A DNA stretch of 38,067 nucleotides, from the NCBI GenBank assembly GCA_016208905.1, contig JACQXG010000014.1, positions 1-38,067 of the forward strand, given 5' to 3'. A program made the position numbers and the translations under genes. The DNA is from Nitrospirota bacterium. Lineage in GTDB: Bacteria; Nitrospirota; Thermodesulfovibrionia; UBA6902. The notes below the pieces were generated by a model. The model saw only the letters and a program-made list of their open reading frames with translations. It ran no database searches and was not told the origin of the DNA. Shown here one piece after another: positions 20,388-27,455 of the stretch. The stretch's first letter is position 1. Each line of letters starts with the position of its first letter.

Positions 20388-21509
20388 ATGATAGACCGAA
20401 GGATATTAAAAGGTTTTGACTGGAGTTTTCTGGCGGCAGTCGTTGTCCTGTCCCTGATAGGGGTAATGACTATCTACAGCGCCACCAGGCCCCTCCTCGA
20501 AACCCAGCAGTCGTCTTTTTATGTGAAGCAGTTAAACTGGATAATGCTGAGTCTCGTTGTTTTTTTTCTGGCCGTAAGTTTTGACTACATGTGGTTTATA
20601 AGATCTGCATACCTGCTATATATAATCGGGGTGATTCTCCTGATAATTGTTCTCGTGGCAGGCAGGAAGGGGATGGGGGCGCAGAGGTGGATTGACCTCG
20701 GTTTTTTATCATTTCAGCCCTCCGAATTTTTCAAGATTTTTGTTGTACTGGCCCTTGCGCGTTATTTTTCACGCGTAGAGCATGGAGAAAAACTCGGGAT
20801 AAAAAAGTTATCAAAAATTGTCGGCATTTTTTTTATTTTCCCTGCAATCCTTATCCTGAAACAGCCTGATCTGGGGACAATGCTGATGGTCCTGTTCATA
20901 TTTACATCAATGGTCCTGACATACGGGGTCAGGAAAAAAATCCTTATAACGGTCCTCGTTATCGGGCTCATCGCTGCGCCGTTTGCCGGCAAATATCTTT
21001 GGGGAGGTTTAAAGGATTATCAGAAAAACAGGATCATAGCATTTATAGACCCGCAGGCAGACCCTCAGGGCGTCGGTTATCATATAGCTCAATCAAAGGT
21101 CTCCATAGGGGCAGGCGGTTTTCTTGGCAAAGGATACACGAAAGGCACCCAGGGACCTTACAGGTTTCTGCCGGAGCACCATACTGATTTTATTTTTTCC
21201 ATATTCTCTGAGGAATGGGGGTTCGTCGGCAGTGTCCTCCTGTTTGTACTGTACCTGTTCATTATATGGAAAGGCTTTGATACGGCAAGAAACGCACGGG
21301 ACATTGAGGGGACTTATCTGGCCCTTGGCGTAACGTATATGTTTACTTTTTATTTTGTCATTAATATCGGGATGACTGTCGGACTGATGCCTGTTGTCGG
21401 CATCCCTCTTCCTCTGATGAGTTACGGAGGGACGGCGCTGCTTTCCAATTTTCTGGCGCTGAGTATTATAGAAAACGTAAGGATACGGAAGTTTGCTTCG
21501 TATTATTAA
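20388..21509 (+). CDS. rodA: rod shape-determining protein RodA (SEDS family)
   Basis: LIGVMTIYSATRP, FQPSEFFKIFVVLALARYFS, KQPDLGTMLM, IGMTVGLMPVVGIPLPLMSYGGTALLSN. Confidence 0.97.
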   Translation: MIDRRILKGFDWSFLAAVVVLSLIGVMTIYSATRPLLETQQSSFYVKQLNWIMLSLVVFFLAVSFDYMWFIRSAYLLYIIGVILLIIVLVAGRKGMGAQRWIDLGFLSFQPSEFFKIFVVLALARYFSRVEHGEKLGIKKLSKIVGIFFIFPAILILKQPDLGTMLMVLFIFTSMVLTYGVRKKILITVLVIGLIAAPFAGKYLWGGLKDYQKNRIIAFIDPQADPQGVGYHIAQSKVSIGAGGFLGKGYTKGTQGPYRFLPEHHTDFIFSIFSEEWGFVGSVLLFVLYLFIIWKGFDTARNARDIEGTYLALGVTYMFTFYFVINIGMTVGLMPVVGIPLPLMSYGGTALLSNFLALSIIENVRIRKFASYY

Positions 21510-21510
21510 C

Positions 21511-21542
21511 GTTTCAATCCACGCGCCCGCGCGGGGCGCGAC
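21511..21542 (-). CRISPR. solitary type I-C-like CRISPR repeat (array remnant, single copy)
   Basis: + strand GTTTCAATCCACGCGCCCGCGCGGGGCGCGAC; minus strand GTCGCGCCCCGCGCGGGCGCGTGGATTGAAAC is 32 nt with the I-C stem and GTGGATTGAAAC tail. No second copy was seen in the window. Confidence 0.85.
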
Positions 21543-21600
21543 AGCTTAATCTGTAACAAAAAAATTTTAAAAAACAAATTCGCTGCTTTTGCGAACATAT

Positions 21601-21753
21601 TTATTTTGTTACTCCAAAGCATACAGTTGTCAGCGTGTGGACTGGAATACGCAAGGATACTTCTCCGTCTATCTTGACGACAACGGTCTCGCCTTCCTTT
21701 GAAAGATATGCGCCCTGAGTTGTGATAAATAATGTGTTGAGATGTTTTTTCAT
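21601..21753 (-). pseudogene. cas1: 5' remnant of type I-C cas1 (50 codons, then TAA)
   Basis: Minus-strand translation MKKHLNTLFITTQGAYLSKEGETVVVKIDGEVSLRIPVHTLTTVCFGVTK* matches the I-C Cas1 N-terminal pattern (MKKLLNTLYVTT.GAYL.KEGETVVV...HTL...VCFG). Too short for the supplied ORF track. Confidence 0.85.
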
Positions 21754-21754
21754 A

Positions 21755-22803
21755 TTATTTGTGTCTCTGTTTCTTCTTTCTTTTGATAGCCGATTCTATC
21801 TTTTTCAACTCTTCATCGTCAGCAAGAGCTTCCTCCTCCGCCTCTATTGCAAGCCGGTTATGGTTAAAGACCTCATAGTGATCAAGAGCCAGTTTACCCG
21901 CTACTTCTTTGGCGACCTTGCCGGCGTTAGTCAGAATGTCCCGTTCGTTAAAGTGCAGGAAGGCATCCAGTTTTTTCCGCCAGTCGCGCATGAATATTTG
22001 CCTGTGCCGCTTTGTCTGATCTTCTGTATAGTCCAGATACATGTTGACAATCCGGTTAAGCACTGCAATCTCGTTCTCATTCAGATAATTCTTGCTATAG
22101 TAACATCCCCCTTGCGGACTTTTGATCCCTTCCATGAGGTCAATCCCATATTGGGCTTCGATGCATCCGCCCGTTCGAAGATTATTTCAGCCGCAGTCTT
22201 GCCTGAAACGGAAAAATGAAGCTTATTCTGGACTATGCTGAAAAATTCGAGCGTTTCCTCCGCAGTCGGATCATAATCAGCAGCAAGTTTATAGATGTCC
22301 CGGATTTTCTGATAAAAGCGCTTTTCACTCGACCGGATGTCCCGGATGCGTTCAAGCATCTCATCAAAGTAATCCGAGCCGATGTTATTGACTTCTTTCA
22401 GGCGCTCATCATCCATGGTAAAGCCTTTGACCAGATACTCGTTTAGCCGTTCAGTCGCCCATTTGCGAAACTGTGTGCCGTGGGGGGATTTCACCCGGTA
22501 GCCAACTGCTATAATCGCTTCAAGGTTGTAGAATTTTATGCGGTAATTCTTGCCGTCAGCAGCAGTTGTCAAGTATTCCTTGACAACTCGTTTTTCCTGC
22601 AGTTCCTCTTCCTCAAAGACATTCCTGAGATGCAGGCTGATATTCTGCTTACTTGTTTGAAATAAATTTGCCATCAGTTGCTGTGAAAGCCAAACGGTTT
22701 CATCCTCAAGGCGTACTTCTATTTTCGTCTGTCCGTCTTCTGTCTGATAGAGAATTAAATCACTTTTGACTGGAATGTTTTCTTTCTTTTTCTTCATGGG
22801 CAT
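21755..22803 (-). pseudogene. rhuM: RhuM-family (virulence protein RhuM) gene split by a 1-nt frameshift
   Basis: N-part 22081..22803: ILYQTEDGQTKIEVRLEDETVWLSQQLMANLFQTSKQNISLHLRNVFEEEEL...NYRIKFYNLEAIIAVGYRVKSPHGTQFRKWAT. C-part 21755..22135: KNYLNENEIAVLNRIVNMYLDYTEDQTKRH. Adding one A at about 22091-22095 (GCAAG to GCAAAG) gives DVTIAKNYLNENE. Confidence 0.88.
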
Positions 22804-22902: not shown

Positions 22903-25017
22903 TTATCCCTTTCCATATCGCCAACGTAGCTGGCCACATTGGCACTGAACCCATTCAGCTCCCTCTGCGTCAGCAAACCATACGCTCTTGCCGCATAATA
23001 AACATTTAAAAGACTCGAGAGCTTTCTCACAGGCATCGATTAGCTTTACGGCTTCGGGACGAACAATATCAAAGGTATGTGTTCCACGGTTGGCCCATGA
23101 CACAAGCAGGCTATCTGTCTTTTCAAAGGCTATTATTGCGTCGCGGTAGGATTCATAGACAGTATCGGTTTTTTTCTGAAAACACGTCTTCCCATCTGCT
23201 ATGATGCGTTCGAGAAAATCATGAGCCAGCCTTTTGTCTTTTTTGTCGGCTCGAAGGTAGGGCATTCTTATCTGTAAATGCTCAGCAATGAATGCGAGTT
23301 CAATGTCCATTATCTTTCGTGCATCGGTCCCCGCTGAGTCTGGTCGAATAATGAGCAGAGCTCGTGCATCATCGAAAGTCGTCGTCTTGTGTGACCAACG
23401 AATACCTAAGTTCGGATTCTCATAAGGTAAAAGTGCCTTGAATATCCACTGATTGTTGTCAAGCTGTTGGCGTAACTCTGTGTACCACTCACGGTCATGG
23501 GTAAGTAGTATCACCTGCCGCTGGCCAAATTCTTTATCAAGCAGTTCTTGGATCATTCCTCGATGGTGACGATCCAAGCTGACGACGACGTCATCAAGGA
23601 ACAGCGGCCGATCATTATCCGCTTCTCGTTTGGCCATAGATAGAAAGATGCATAGGCCGAGGCTGTTTCTGTTTCCCTCAGAAAGTGTGAGCCTCGGAGA
23701 GTCTTGTTCTACGCCGTGAAACTTCAGACCAATATCAATTGCTTTGTCGGAGTCTTCGGGTAGATAAAGCTTGACATCATCAATTGACTCACCCGGATGC
23801 AAGATGGACCACATGGATTGAACGTCTGTAGAAATCTCATCTATCACCTTTTCAGATTGTGACCTGATTTCTTCACGGATGCCCTGCTCAAGAGTATCGA
23901 GGAATGAAACTAATACAGAAGTACGAGTCACTGCGGCGGCAATTTCACTAATCTCTATCACTGTATTAGCTGCATCGACTGTCAGCTTATCATTCGAAAG
24001 TTGTCGAACATCGAGTGGAGCGTCTTTCGAGCCTGTCACCGCAGCTTCGACTATGGGCACCAGCTTGTCCTCGATGTCTTTGAGATCAACCTCAGTACAT
24101 GAGGTTCTGAGTGTCTCGGAGTCAATACCATTAAGGTATGTGAAACAATCAACAAGAATCCCCTCAGAGATTTCGTCACGCCATGACTTCACGTCCTCTT
24201 TGTTCAAGCTGGACTTGAGTGATTTCAGGTCATCGCATAGAGTCCCAATGGAAGCCTTACGCTTATTAAAAGTATTGAGGATATCCTGAAGTCGTTCCTT
24301 CTCGTCAATGATGTGTGCTTGGAACAATTCGACCGATATTAAACGTCCACAAGCGGGACAATTAATCTCCTTCTCTTTTCCCAGCTTATCTGCGAATCGA
24401 CTTGCAGCTTTGAGGATTTCCAATCTTTCGATTATAAATGGTTCCACTACTTCTGATAGCTTGGCACTATGTGATCGTACTGTAGCAATTTGCCCTTTGA
24501 AATCCAAGCTCGCTACATCTCGTAGAGTAAGATATCTTTTCTGATCTGTGGAAAAATTGGTTACTTTAGTATCGAGAGCCGTTTTGATCTCTTTGCAGCA
24601 TGCTATGGTGTCTGTTGTTTTATTTTTATCTGAGCAGTATCTCAAATAGAGAACATCGAGTGTGTCAAAAATATCCTTGTCGGAGGCATTGCCAAAGACC
24701 TTTTTCCGTTTGGTGTCTGCATCGTTCAATACCGTATTATTCTGAATAAGATTCGATTCTTTTTTGACAGACTTCACAAGTTGTCGGAGATTTTCGGCTG
24801 CCACTTCCATCTGATTAAGGCCGAGGAGTGGCAGAAGAGCTGAGTATTTACTACCCTTAGTGTCTCGGATAAAATTCGCAACCTCGTCTTGCCTAAGTAT
24901 CGTGCGTTGATAATCCCAATTATTAATTATATCTACTGCAGCCGCCTTAAGGGTGAATGTGCCGTTCTTCTCGATCTCGGCCATTAGTTCCGACCCATCC
25001 TTAAACTTGATCTTCAA
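22903..25017 (-). CDS. SMC/RecN-like AAA (ABC-type) ATPase with zinc hook; N-terminal Walker A not found, possibly 5' truncated
   Basis: Zinc hook CPACGR, ABC signature LTLSEGNRNSLGLCIFLSMA, Walker B PLFLDDVVVSLD, H-switch LLTHD, C-terminal CLLCGK...CQCG; TTG start; no GxxxxGK[ST] anywhere in the ORF. Confidence 0.75.
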   Translation of the reverse strand: MKIKFKDGSELMAEIEKNGTFTLKAAAVDIINNWDYQRTILRQDEVANFIRDTKGSKYSALLPLLGLNQMEVAAENLRQLVKSVKKESNLIQNNTVLNDADTKRKKVFGNASDKDIFDTLDVLYLRYCSDKNKTTDTIACCKEIKTALDTKVTNFSTDQKRYLTLRDVASLDFKGQIATVRSHSAKLSEVVEPFIIERLEILKAASRFADKLGKEKEINCPACGRLISVELFQAHIIDEKERLQDILNTFNKRKASIGTLCDDLKSLKSSLNKEDVKSWRDEISEGILVDCFTYLNGIDSETLRTSCTEVDLKDIEDKLVPIVEAAVTGSKDAPLDVRQLSNDKLTVDAANTVIEISEIAAAVTRTSVLVSFLDTLEQGIREEIRSQSEKVIDEISTDVQSMWSILHPGESIDDVKLYLPEDSDKAIDIGLKFHGVEQDSPRLTLSEGNRNSLGLCIFLSMAKREADNDRPLFLDDVVVSLDRHHRGMIQELLDKEFGQRQVILLTHDREWYTELRQQLDNNQWIFKALLPYENPNLGIRWSHKTTTFDDARALLIIRPDSAGTDARKIMDIELAFIAEHLQIRMPYLRADKKDKRLAHDFLERIIADGKTCFQKKTDTVYESYRDAIIAFEKTDSLLVSWANRGTHTFDIVRPEAVKLIDACEKALESFKCLLCGKSVWFADAEGAEWVQCQCGQLRWRYGKG

Positions 25018-25520: not shown

Positions 25521-26033
25521 TCAATTCTCAGACTCCCTCCCAAACCCGATCTTCTTTTTTGGATTCTGTGAAGGCTCAATTAACTGTTTTATAACTTCAA
25601 AAACAACCTTGAACTGATGGTCGTATTTCTTTTCCATATCTTCTATCTTCTGCCTCAGTTCTTTATGCGTTGTCAACATCTCACGCAATTTTACAAACGC
25701 CCTCATTATCGCAATGTTTACCCTGACCGCCAGTTCACTGTTGAGAACACTTGACAGCATGGCTACTCCCTGCTCGGTGAACGCGTAAGGAGCAACTGTG
25801 GAATGTTTAAGTGTCTTGAACCGGTCACAATTTGTGACCAGTTCATTTCTCTCAATTATTGATAACTGAAACATGAAGTCTTCAGGAAAACGAGAGAGGT
25901 TCCTTTTAACTGCCTGATTCAGGGCCTTTGTTTCTACGCCATAAAGCGCAGCAAGGTCTCTGTCCAGCATTACCTTCTTGCCTCTGATAATAAGTATTTT
26001 GCCTTCGATAACCTGCTGCGGTATGATCTCCAT
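25521..26033 (-). CDS. ORF6N domain-containing protein
   Basis: [49 protein letters not shown]...[38 protein letters not shown]. Confidence 0.9.
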
Positions 26034-26106: not shown

Positions 26107-26508
26107 TCATAAAATCTCCCTTATCCCTTTGCCAAAGAGGGGCATATTCCAGCCTTCAGACTCCCCCTTAAACCCTATCTTCTTCCTCTTCGTCTCCGGC
26201 GGAGCCATCAACTGCCTTATGGCATCAAAGATCAATTTAATCTCTCCATCATGTTTCTCTATCTTCCGCTCAAGCTGCGCCAGATTGTGGGCAAGCTCCT
26301 TATGTGTTATTAGTATTTCTCGAAGTCTTGTGAATGTTCTCATTATCTGGATGTTTACCGTTATCGCCCGTTCACTATTAAGAACACTTGATAACATTGC
26401 AACGCCATTTTCAGTAAAAGCAAACGGCATTTTTCTTAATCCCATCTTTTCTTTAGATTTCTGATGTCCCCATGTTGCCCCCTCCTGATTAAAAGTTTGT
26501 TGCATCAT
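26107..26508 (-). pseudogene. ORF6N-family paralogue lacking the N-terminal ORF6N core
   Basis: [50 protein letters not shown] aligns with the neighbouring gene, but the preceding approx. 80 residues are missing and the ORF start reads through sequence resembling the neighbour's 5' untranslated region. Confidence 0.75.
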
Positions 26509-26681
26509 TTTATCTCTTAATTTTTATATTATCAAGACAATTCAGGAGGGCTTCTGAGCATCAGAAACAGAGGCAGATTTTCAATCAATAATGCAATACA
26601 CTTCAGTCTGAAAAAATAAACGTCAGAAAAAATAAATTTCAAGAAATATTCAAAATATCGTATAATCTATTTCCATATAAA

Positions 26682-27455
26682 ATGCTTATTAAATTTATCG
26701 AATATATCGGCGCGCTCATAGAGCGACCTGTCTTGGGTCTCGGCAGGCTGATGCTTCTGTTGTATTCCACTATAAAAGCAATGTTAAGGCCTCCTTTTGA
26801 AATAAGGAACATTGTGAGGCAGATGCTTGAAATAGGGGTCAACTCGCTTCCTGTAGTTTTTATAACAGCCGTATTCACCGGGATGGTCCTTGCACTGCAG
26901 AGCTACACAGGATTCAAGAGGTTCGGCGCCGAAGGGTTGGTAGGGACTGTAGTTGCGCTTTCAATGACGAGGGAACTTGGTCCTGTGCTTGCCGCGCTTA
27001 TTGTTACAGGGCGCGCCGGAGCTGCTATAGCTGCCGAACTGGGAACAATGAGGGTCACGGAACAGATTGACGCCCTGGAGGTCATGGCCGCAAATCCTAT
27101 AAAATACCTTGTTGTTCCGAGGTTCCTGTCAGGCATGATTATGCTTCCGGCCCTTACGGTCCTGACTGATATTGTGGGTATAATCGGCGGTTACATGGTC
27201 AGTGTTCTTATGCTTGGCGTTAATTCCAAATCTTATATGAGGGCGACATGGGATTTTCTGGATGCAGAGGATATCTTCAATGGTCTTATCAAGGCTTTTT
27301 TTTTCGGGGCCGCATTTACCCTTATCAGCTGCTATAAAGGATTTTATACAAAAGGCGGGGCCGAAGGTGTCGGAAGGGCATGTACGGGCGCTGTTGTTTA
27401 TTCATCCATGACTATTCTTGTATCGGACTACTTTCTCTCGGTATGGTTATTCTAA
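26682..27455 (+). CDS. mlaE: MlaE-family ABC transporter permease
   Basis: LPVVFITAVFTGMVLALQSYTGFKRFGAEGLVGTVVALSMTRELGPVLAALIVTGRAGAAIAAELGTMRVTEQIDALEVM. Confidence 0.95.
   Translation: MLIKFIEYIGALIERPVLGLGRLMLLLYSTIKAMLRPPFEIRNIVRQMLEIGVNSLPVVFITAVFTGMVLALQSYTGFKRFGAEGLVGTVVALSMTRELGPVLAALIVTGRAGAAIAAELGTMRVTEQIDALEVMAANPIKYLVVPRFLSGMIMLPALTVLTDIVGIIGGYMVSVLMLGVNSKSYMRATWDFLDAEDIFNGLIKAFFFGAAFTLISCYKGFYTKGGAEGVGRACTGAVVYSSMTILVSDYFLSVWLF

Follow-up and report, generated by a model that had tools for sequence, protein, structure and literature searches.

A single type I-C CRISPR repeat behind rodA in a Nitrospirota bacterium, very probably the degraded end of a RhuM-bearing type I-C locus

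How does a complete CRISPR repeat come to stand alone, one nucleotide behind the stop codon of rodA? We address this question for a contig of a Nitrospirota bacterium analysed over its whole length (38,067 nt; hereafter the window), which belongs to a draft genome of 2.19 Mb in 107 contigs, ~86% complete. The rodA stop codon TAA occupies 21507-21509, a C follows at 21510 and the exact 32-mer GTTTCAATCCACGCGCCCGCGCGGGGCGCGAC begins at 21511, confirming letter by letter the original prediction, made from the sequence of the window, of a complete 32-nt repeat at this place. The prediction had also called the repeat solitary, and this holds for window and genome alike: allowing up to three mismatches, the window contains a single copy of the 32-mer and no other contig adds a second, no further degenerate repeats being found in either, and shuffled sequence contains no copy. 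A single copy does not constitute a CRISPR array, which requires at least two repeats separated by unique spacers. We propose that the repeat is very probably the degraded end of a RhuM-bearing type I-C locus, which arrived within an insertion of ~5.1 kb and decayed by the steps described below.

Judged by its sequence, the 32-mer is a true type I-C repeat. The identical 32-mer is held by 53 stretches of genome contigs, in many cases as regular arrays with a spacing of ~66 nt, and such arrays occur in Nitrospirota, Thermodesulfobacteriota, Spirochaetota, Omnitrophota and other phyla, many of them adjoining I-C cas2-cas1-cas4-cas7 genes, i.e. the window repeat is identical to repeats served by I-C cas genes. 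A genome of the same family (G048) carries a 16-repeat array with exactly this 32-mer as its unit, and the arrays of relatives consist of close variants with up to 33 repeats per array. The repeat shows the short hairpin and the GTGGATTGAAAC-like 3' end of I-C repeats; the hairpin has a 7-bp stem and a folding energy of -14.3 kcal/mol, with a z-score of only -0.98 against shuffles of the same base composition. The Rfam family CRISPR-DR9 matches exactly 21511-21542 on the minus strand, albeit weakly (22.8 bits, below the gathering threshold of 45). Lone exact I-C repeats were also observed on a 50-kb viral contig, IMGVR_UViG_3300031673_000079, which holds three of them (L056:6125-6156, L057:358-389 and 955-986), two with the common flank CGCAGATAYTGAAGATATCACC; these are candidate RNA anti-CRISPRs (solitary repeat units).

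Table 1. Features of the rodA-mlaE interval of the window and RhuM genes between cas4 and cas1 in relatives
Feature	Coordinates	Strand	Evidence or remark
rodA, intact host gene, left edge of the insertion	20388..21509	+	PF01098, E 2e-96
Single type I-C CRISPR repeat	21511..21542	-	forward GTTTCAATCCACGCGCCCGCGCGGGGCGCGAC; crRNA sense GTCGCGCCCCGCGCGGGCGCGTGGATTGAAAC
CRISPR leader, repeat-proximal ~90 nt	21543..21632	-	80% DNA identity to G012 leader; common blocks
Deletion junction between cas1 codon 41 and leader	21631..21634	-	alignment of relatives' cas1 5' ends and leaders
cas1 remnant, 40 codons and part of codon 41	21633..21753	-	TIGR03640 (cas1_DVULG), E 1.1e-12
RhuM gene, frameshifted	21755..22803	-	PF13310, E 6e-81 and 4e-26
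ATPase-like gene	22903-25017		AAA_13/SMC; weak mad3, PDC-S06 and PrrC profile matches
Two tandem ORF6N-domain genes, second truncated	25521-26033, 26107-26508		same insertion
mlaE, host gene, right edge of the insertion	26682..27455	+	PF02405
RhuM between cas4 and cas1	L138:5845-6897, L140:7309-8322, L144:8441-9481, L145:4093-5133, L146:4117-5142		PF13310; I-C operons

The sequence attached to the repeat identifies it as the end of a former array (Table 1). Two blocks are common to ten leaders taken from relatives, a TTGACAACTG-like one at a distance of ~90 nt from the repeat and GTTCGCAAAA at ~48 nt; the window carries CTGACAACTG, which is TTGACAACTG-like, and GTTCGCAAAA at matching distances, so that the blocks conserved beside the first repeat in relatives are present here as well; first repeat and leader together are 80% identical at the DNA level to those of G012, a relative of the same family. 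Beyond the leader lies a true cas1 remnant, supporting the original prediction that the repeat, read on the minus strand, has the usual I-C orientation downstream of cas1. The remnant begins with an ATG at 21753 and matches the cas1 DNA of relatives as far as codon 41, and its region shows 89% DNA identity to the start of cas1 and adjoining sequence of a further relative (G003). The frame fused from cas1 and leader extends nine codons past the junction to a TAA at 21601-21603 and encodes 50 amino acids in total. It aligns with residues 1-48 of intact I-C Cas1 at 77% amino-acid identity, the last seven being leader read in frame; we rejected the VCFG following the junction as part of cas1, as the leader alignment identifies it as leader that is in frame by chance. 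At the junction itself 1-3 nt (CT/T) are common to both sides, and the CT runs straight into the leader.

Comparison with the intact locus of G012 (L138) reveals what is missing. Its gene order is cas3-cas5-cas8c-cas7-cas4-RhuM-cas1-cas2-leader-array, with cas3, cas5 and cas8c named by reading of the open reading frames, and the window keeps RhuM, the start of cas1, leader and repeat in the same order and orientation, with 76% DNA identity over 1.2 kb from the cas4-RhuM spacer through the cas1 start. As order and polarity match, ~1.3 kb was deleted relative to G012, comprising the remaining part of cas1, cas2 and the distal (outer) leader. The RhuM gene ends 1 nt before the cas1 remnant and is broken into two pieces (22081-22803 and 21755-22135) by the loss of 1 nt near 22093; it is 76% identical in DNA to the G012 RhuM located between cas4 and cas1. 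In a RhuM tree the window copy falls inside the group of cas-linked RhuM genes with support of 100/98, and the tree implies that the link to cas was gained or lost at least twice. Colinearity and RhuM grouping together argue for the window containing the stump of such an operon, as opposed to a repeat and a cas1 fragment that lie close together by chance.

The I-C piece is, as deduced from the sequences of relatives, not ancestral to the genus at this site but arrived with a lineage-specific insertion of ~5.1 kb. An orthologue of rodA is present in 40 of 40 genomes, and in 16 relatives mlaE directly follows rodA with 2 to ~160 nt between them; three of the 16 belong to the same genus (G001, G002 and G004) and yielded no cas1_DVULG match. 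This adjacency in relatives points to a lineage-specific insertion. In the window the gap measures 5.17 kb and contains repeat, leader, the remnants of cas1 and RhuM, an ATPase gene and two ORF6N genes, the native sequence being back by ~26625, since the stretch of 56 nt ahead of mlaE (26625-26680) shows an 89% match to the spacer between rodA and mlaE in G002. Apart from AACGT, a 5-nt motif present close to either end and perhaps due to chance, no target-site duplication was found. The ATPase gene lacks a recognisable Walker A motif and is therefore probably truncated N-terminally; an order-wide search for its source returned one distant match only (27%). None of the 16 relatives carries an I-C locus at rodA-mlaE, their I-C loci being located elsewhere in their genomes; G003, which has a 33-repeat I-C array, was left out of this site comparison as its contig ends inside rodA. 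The original prediction had spoken of an ancestral I-C locus, of which the match in order and polarity to an intact I-C locus stands, whereas ancestry at rodA-mlaE does not. It had also considered that relatives might never carry CRISPR here, which is true in our sample; the identification as a relic is untouched by the empty sites, as it rests on the attached leader and cas1 remnant.

The locus is almost certainly inactive, as far as gene content can tell. Of the genes of a working I-C locus (cas1, cas2, cas4, cas5, cas7, cas8c and cas3) only the cas1 remnant of ~41 codons is present, and the ~86% complete genome contains neither a match to Cas7 (PF05107) nor a second cas1_DVULG match, from which the inactivity follows. 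The effector search of the genome covered Cas7 and Cas3. It yielded one strong Cas3 match with HD and helicase domains at L171:664-2115 (G000:C100), which is cut by the contig end; no I-C gene was seen beside it, and it probably belongs to another type I CRISPR system. I-C effector genes may lie elsewhere in the genome, the draft being incomplete. As the assembly lacks cas1, cas2 and I-C effector genes, the repeat would be unable to acquire spacers or to give rise to a working guide; moreover, a lone repeat with no spacer cannot serve as the source of a guide. The window thus holds a dead but otherwise ordinary immune locus, whose single repeat CRISPR finders would miss.

These observations support a model according to which the source was an I-C locus of the family variant with RhuM between cas4 and cas1, a piece of which would have entered the rodA-mlaE spacer within the insertion. 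A single deletion fused codon 41 of cas1 to the leader at a point ~90 nt short of the array, removing the remaining cas1, cas2 and the outer leader; RhuM suffered a frameshift, effector genes and cas4 are absent from the locus, and the array is reduced to one repeat directly against rodA, the order of these events being our suggestion. Regarding the last step, a route published for Legionella (PMC7056967) is recombination of the first repeat with the last, after which one repeat remains, and such a catastrophic collapse fits the window, although it is unproven; truncation at the repeat edge would give the same sequence and fits too. Since the break lies at most 1 nt from both the repeat end and the rodA stop, collapse works only if the array already abutted rodA. 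The leader-distal repeat of G012 (L138:9014-9050) has such a position, being separated by 1 nt from the TAA that ends a convergent phosphoesterase gene (TAA-G-repeat). That arrays end at stop codons as a general rule was rejected, as in the other relatives array end and stop codon are 25-144 nt apart. The collapse itself is unobserved, as the analysis found no strain that combines this insertion with an intact array. We also considered a self-targeting spacer from the rodA end followed by recombination with rodA and rejected it, as there is no second copy of the rodA end at the right edge; the native sequence behind rodA varies from relative to relative, which makes the PAM of the supposed spacer unreadable.

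An alternative to collapse in place, which differs from it only in the origin of the single repeat, is that a break at the repeat edge linked the end of rodA to an I-C fragment terminating at its first repeat, through random end joining or through Cas1-Cas2 cutting at the repeat-spacer border. We lean away from this explanation but consider it a real possibility: 1 nt separates the join from the repeat end, some joining event must have occurred at rodA given that relatives have no CRISPR here, and the remaining insertion is likewise a patchwork of broken genes. However, the naturally close spacing of last repeat and stop codon in G012 makes a special joining unnecessary, and beyond AACGT there is no target-site duplication. 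The more specific claim that the junction of repeat and rodA stop is the scar of off-array Cas1-Cas2 joining a chromosomal end at the repeat-spacer border is highly improbable; if true, the CRISPR integrase itself would have rearranged the chromosome. An assembly artefact, in which a real array was skipped by the assembler, would be conceivable in a draft this fragmented, CRISPR arrays being difficult to assemble, yet it is very unlikely, as the cas1-leader deletion and the RhuM frameshift are independent signs of decay of the same locus and no other repeat copy exists on any contig, where a skipped array usually leaves repeat-bearing ends.

Solitary repeats of phages serve as RNA anti-CRISPRs, one tested case being of type I-C (PMC10651486), and the window repeat folds as a hairpin, as does any I-C repeat, so that it might be a working solitary repeat unit encoding a putative Racr-like repeat-mimic RNA that blocks I-C systems. 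We regard this as scarcely credible here. Leader and cas1-RhuM remnant are attached in array order, marking a former array; the repeat lies between rodA and mlaE and not in a virus, prophage or plasmid away from cas genes; the interval contains, by Pfam and PADLOC, no phage structural or replication genes but only RhuM, ORF6N and ATPase genes; no promoter-like site was found reading into the repeat; and the TTGACA block of the leader has lost its first T. The probability that the 32-mer is a GC-rich palindrome arisen by chance, or a common intergenic repeat without connection to CRISPR, is negligible: shuffles lead to an expectation of zero, the genome has a single copy and the 32-mer is identical to true array repeats, and the attached leader and cas1 already refute this reading.

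The position of RhuM between cas4 and cas1 is not peculiar to the window. It is found in I-C operons of G012, G017, G043, G044 and G047, while G045 and the window have broken copies; G003 probably carries a scar of it, and in G002 a cas4-RhuM pair is located at a contig end. In a phylum sample of 295 genomes RhuM lies directly upstream of cas1_DVULG in six of 51 matches, the six genomes (G012, G017, G062, G156, G194 and G298) representing families f1, f8, f9 and f22. In the same place a Smithellaceae genome (L016) has RhuM together with a BRO-N-like gene and a Desulfosudis genome (L042) a gene with a Fic signature, both the BRO-N and the Fic names being tentative readings of the sequences. Cas-linked RhuM, Fic-like and RhuM plus BRO-N-like genes between cas4 and cas1 thus span several families. 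We found no published account of RhuM at this position of I-C operons; closest in the literature are RhuM genes adjoining a II-C locus in Bacteroides fragilis (PMC5704556) and restriction-modification loci that contain RhuM or Fic as proposed toxins (PMC3710099). The arrangement makes RhuM a possible accessory of the I-C adaptation module and suggests that the two are partners, RhuM having a toxin-like or regulatory role. This by-product may outweigh the relic itself in importance, and the partner idea is testable.

The window documents the death of an I-C locus through a cas1-leader deletion, loss of spacers down to one repeat and the frameshift of an accessory gene, and it illustrates that single-repeat relics are recognisable via their leader where array finders see nothing. 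Among known systems, the G012 locus has the order and orientation RhuM-cas1-leader-repeat in common with the window but contains full-length cas3, cas5, cas8c, cas7, cas4, cas1 and cas2 and about ten repeats, whereas the window has kept ~41 codons of cas1, ~90 nt of leader and one repeat. The I-C locus of G026 (L139) likewise consists of a leader and a single I-C repeat (L139:9879-9910; G026:C158:37878-37909), but it lies away from rodA and beside full-length cas2, cas1 and cas4, and represents a collapsed array that can perhaps be refilled. Viral solitary repeat units (Racr; PMC10651486) resemble the window in being lone repeats and differ from it in their setting: they are carried by viruses or prophages, in many cases directly behind a promoter, and are not accompanied by cas genes. 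In the type I-F model of Legionella pneumophila (PMC7056967) one repeat and no spacers are left, as in the window; there, the cas genes are intact and the array can be refilled, whereas the window lacks cas1-cas2 and effectors.
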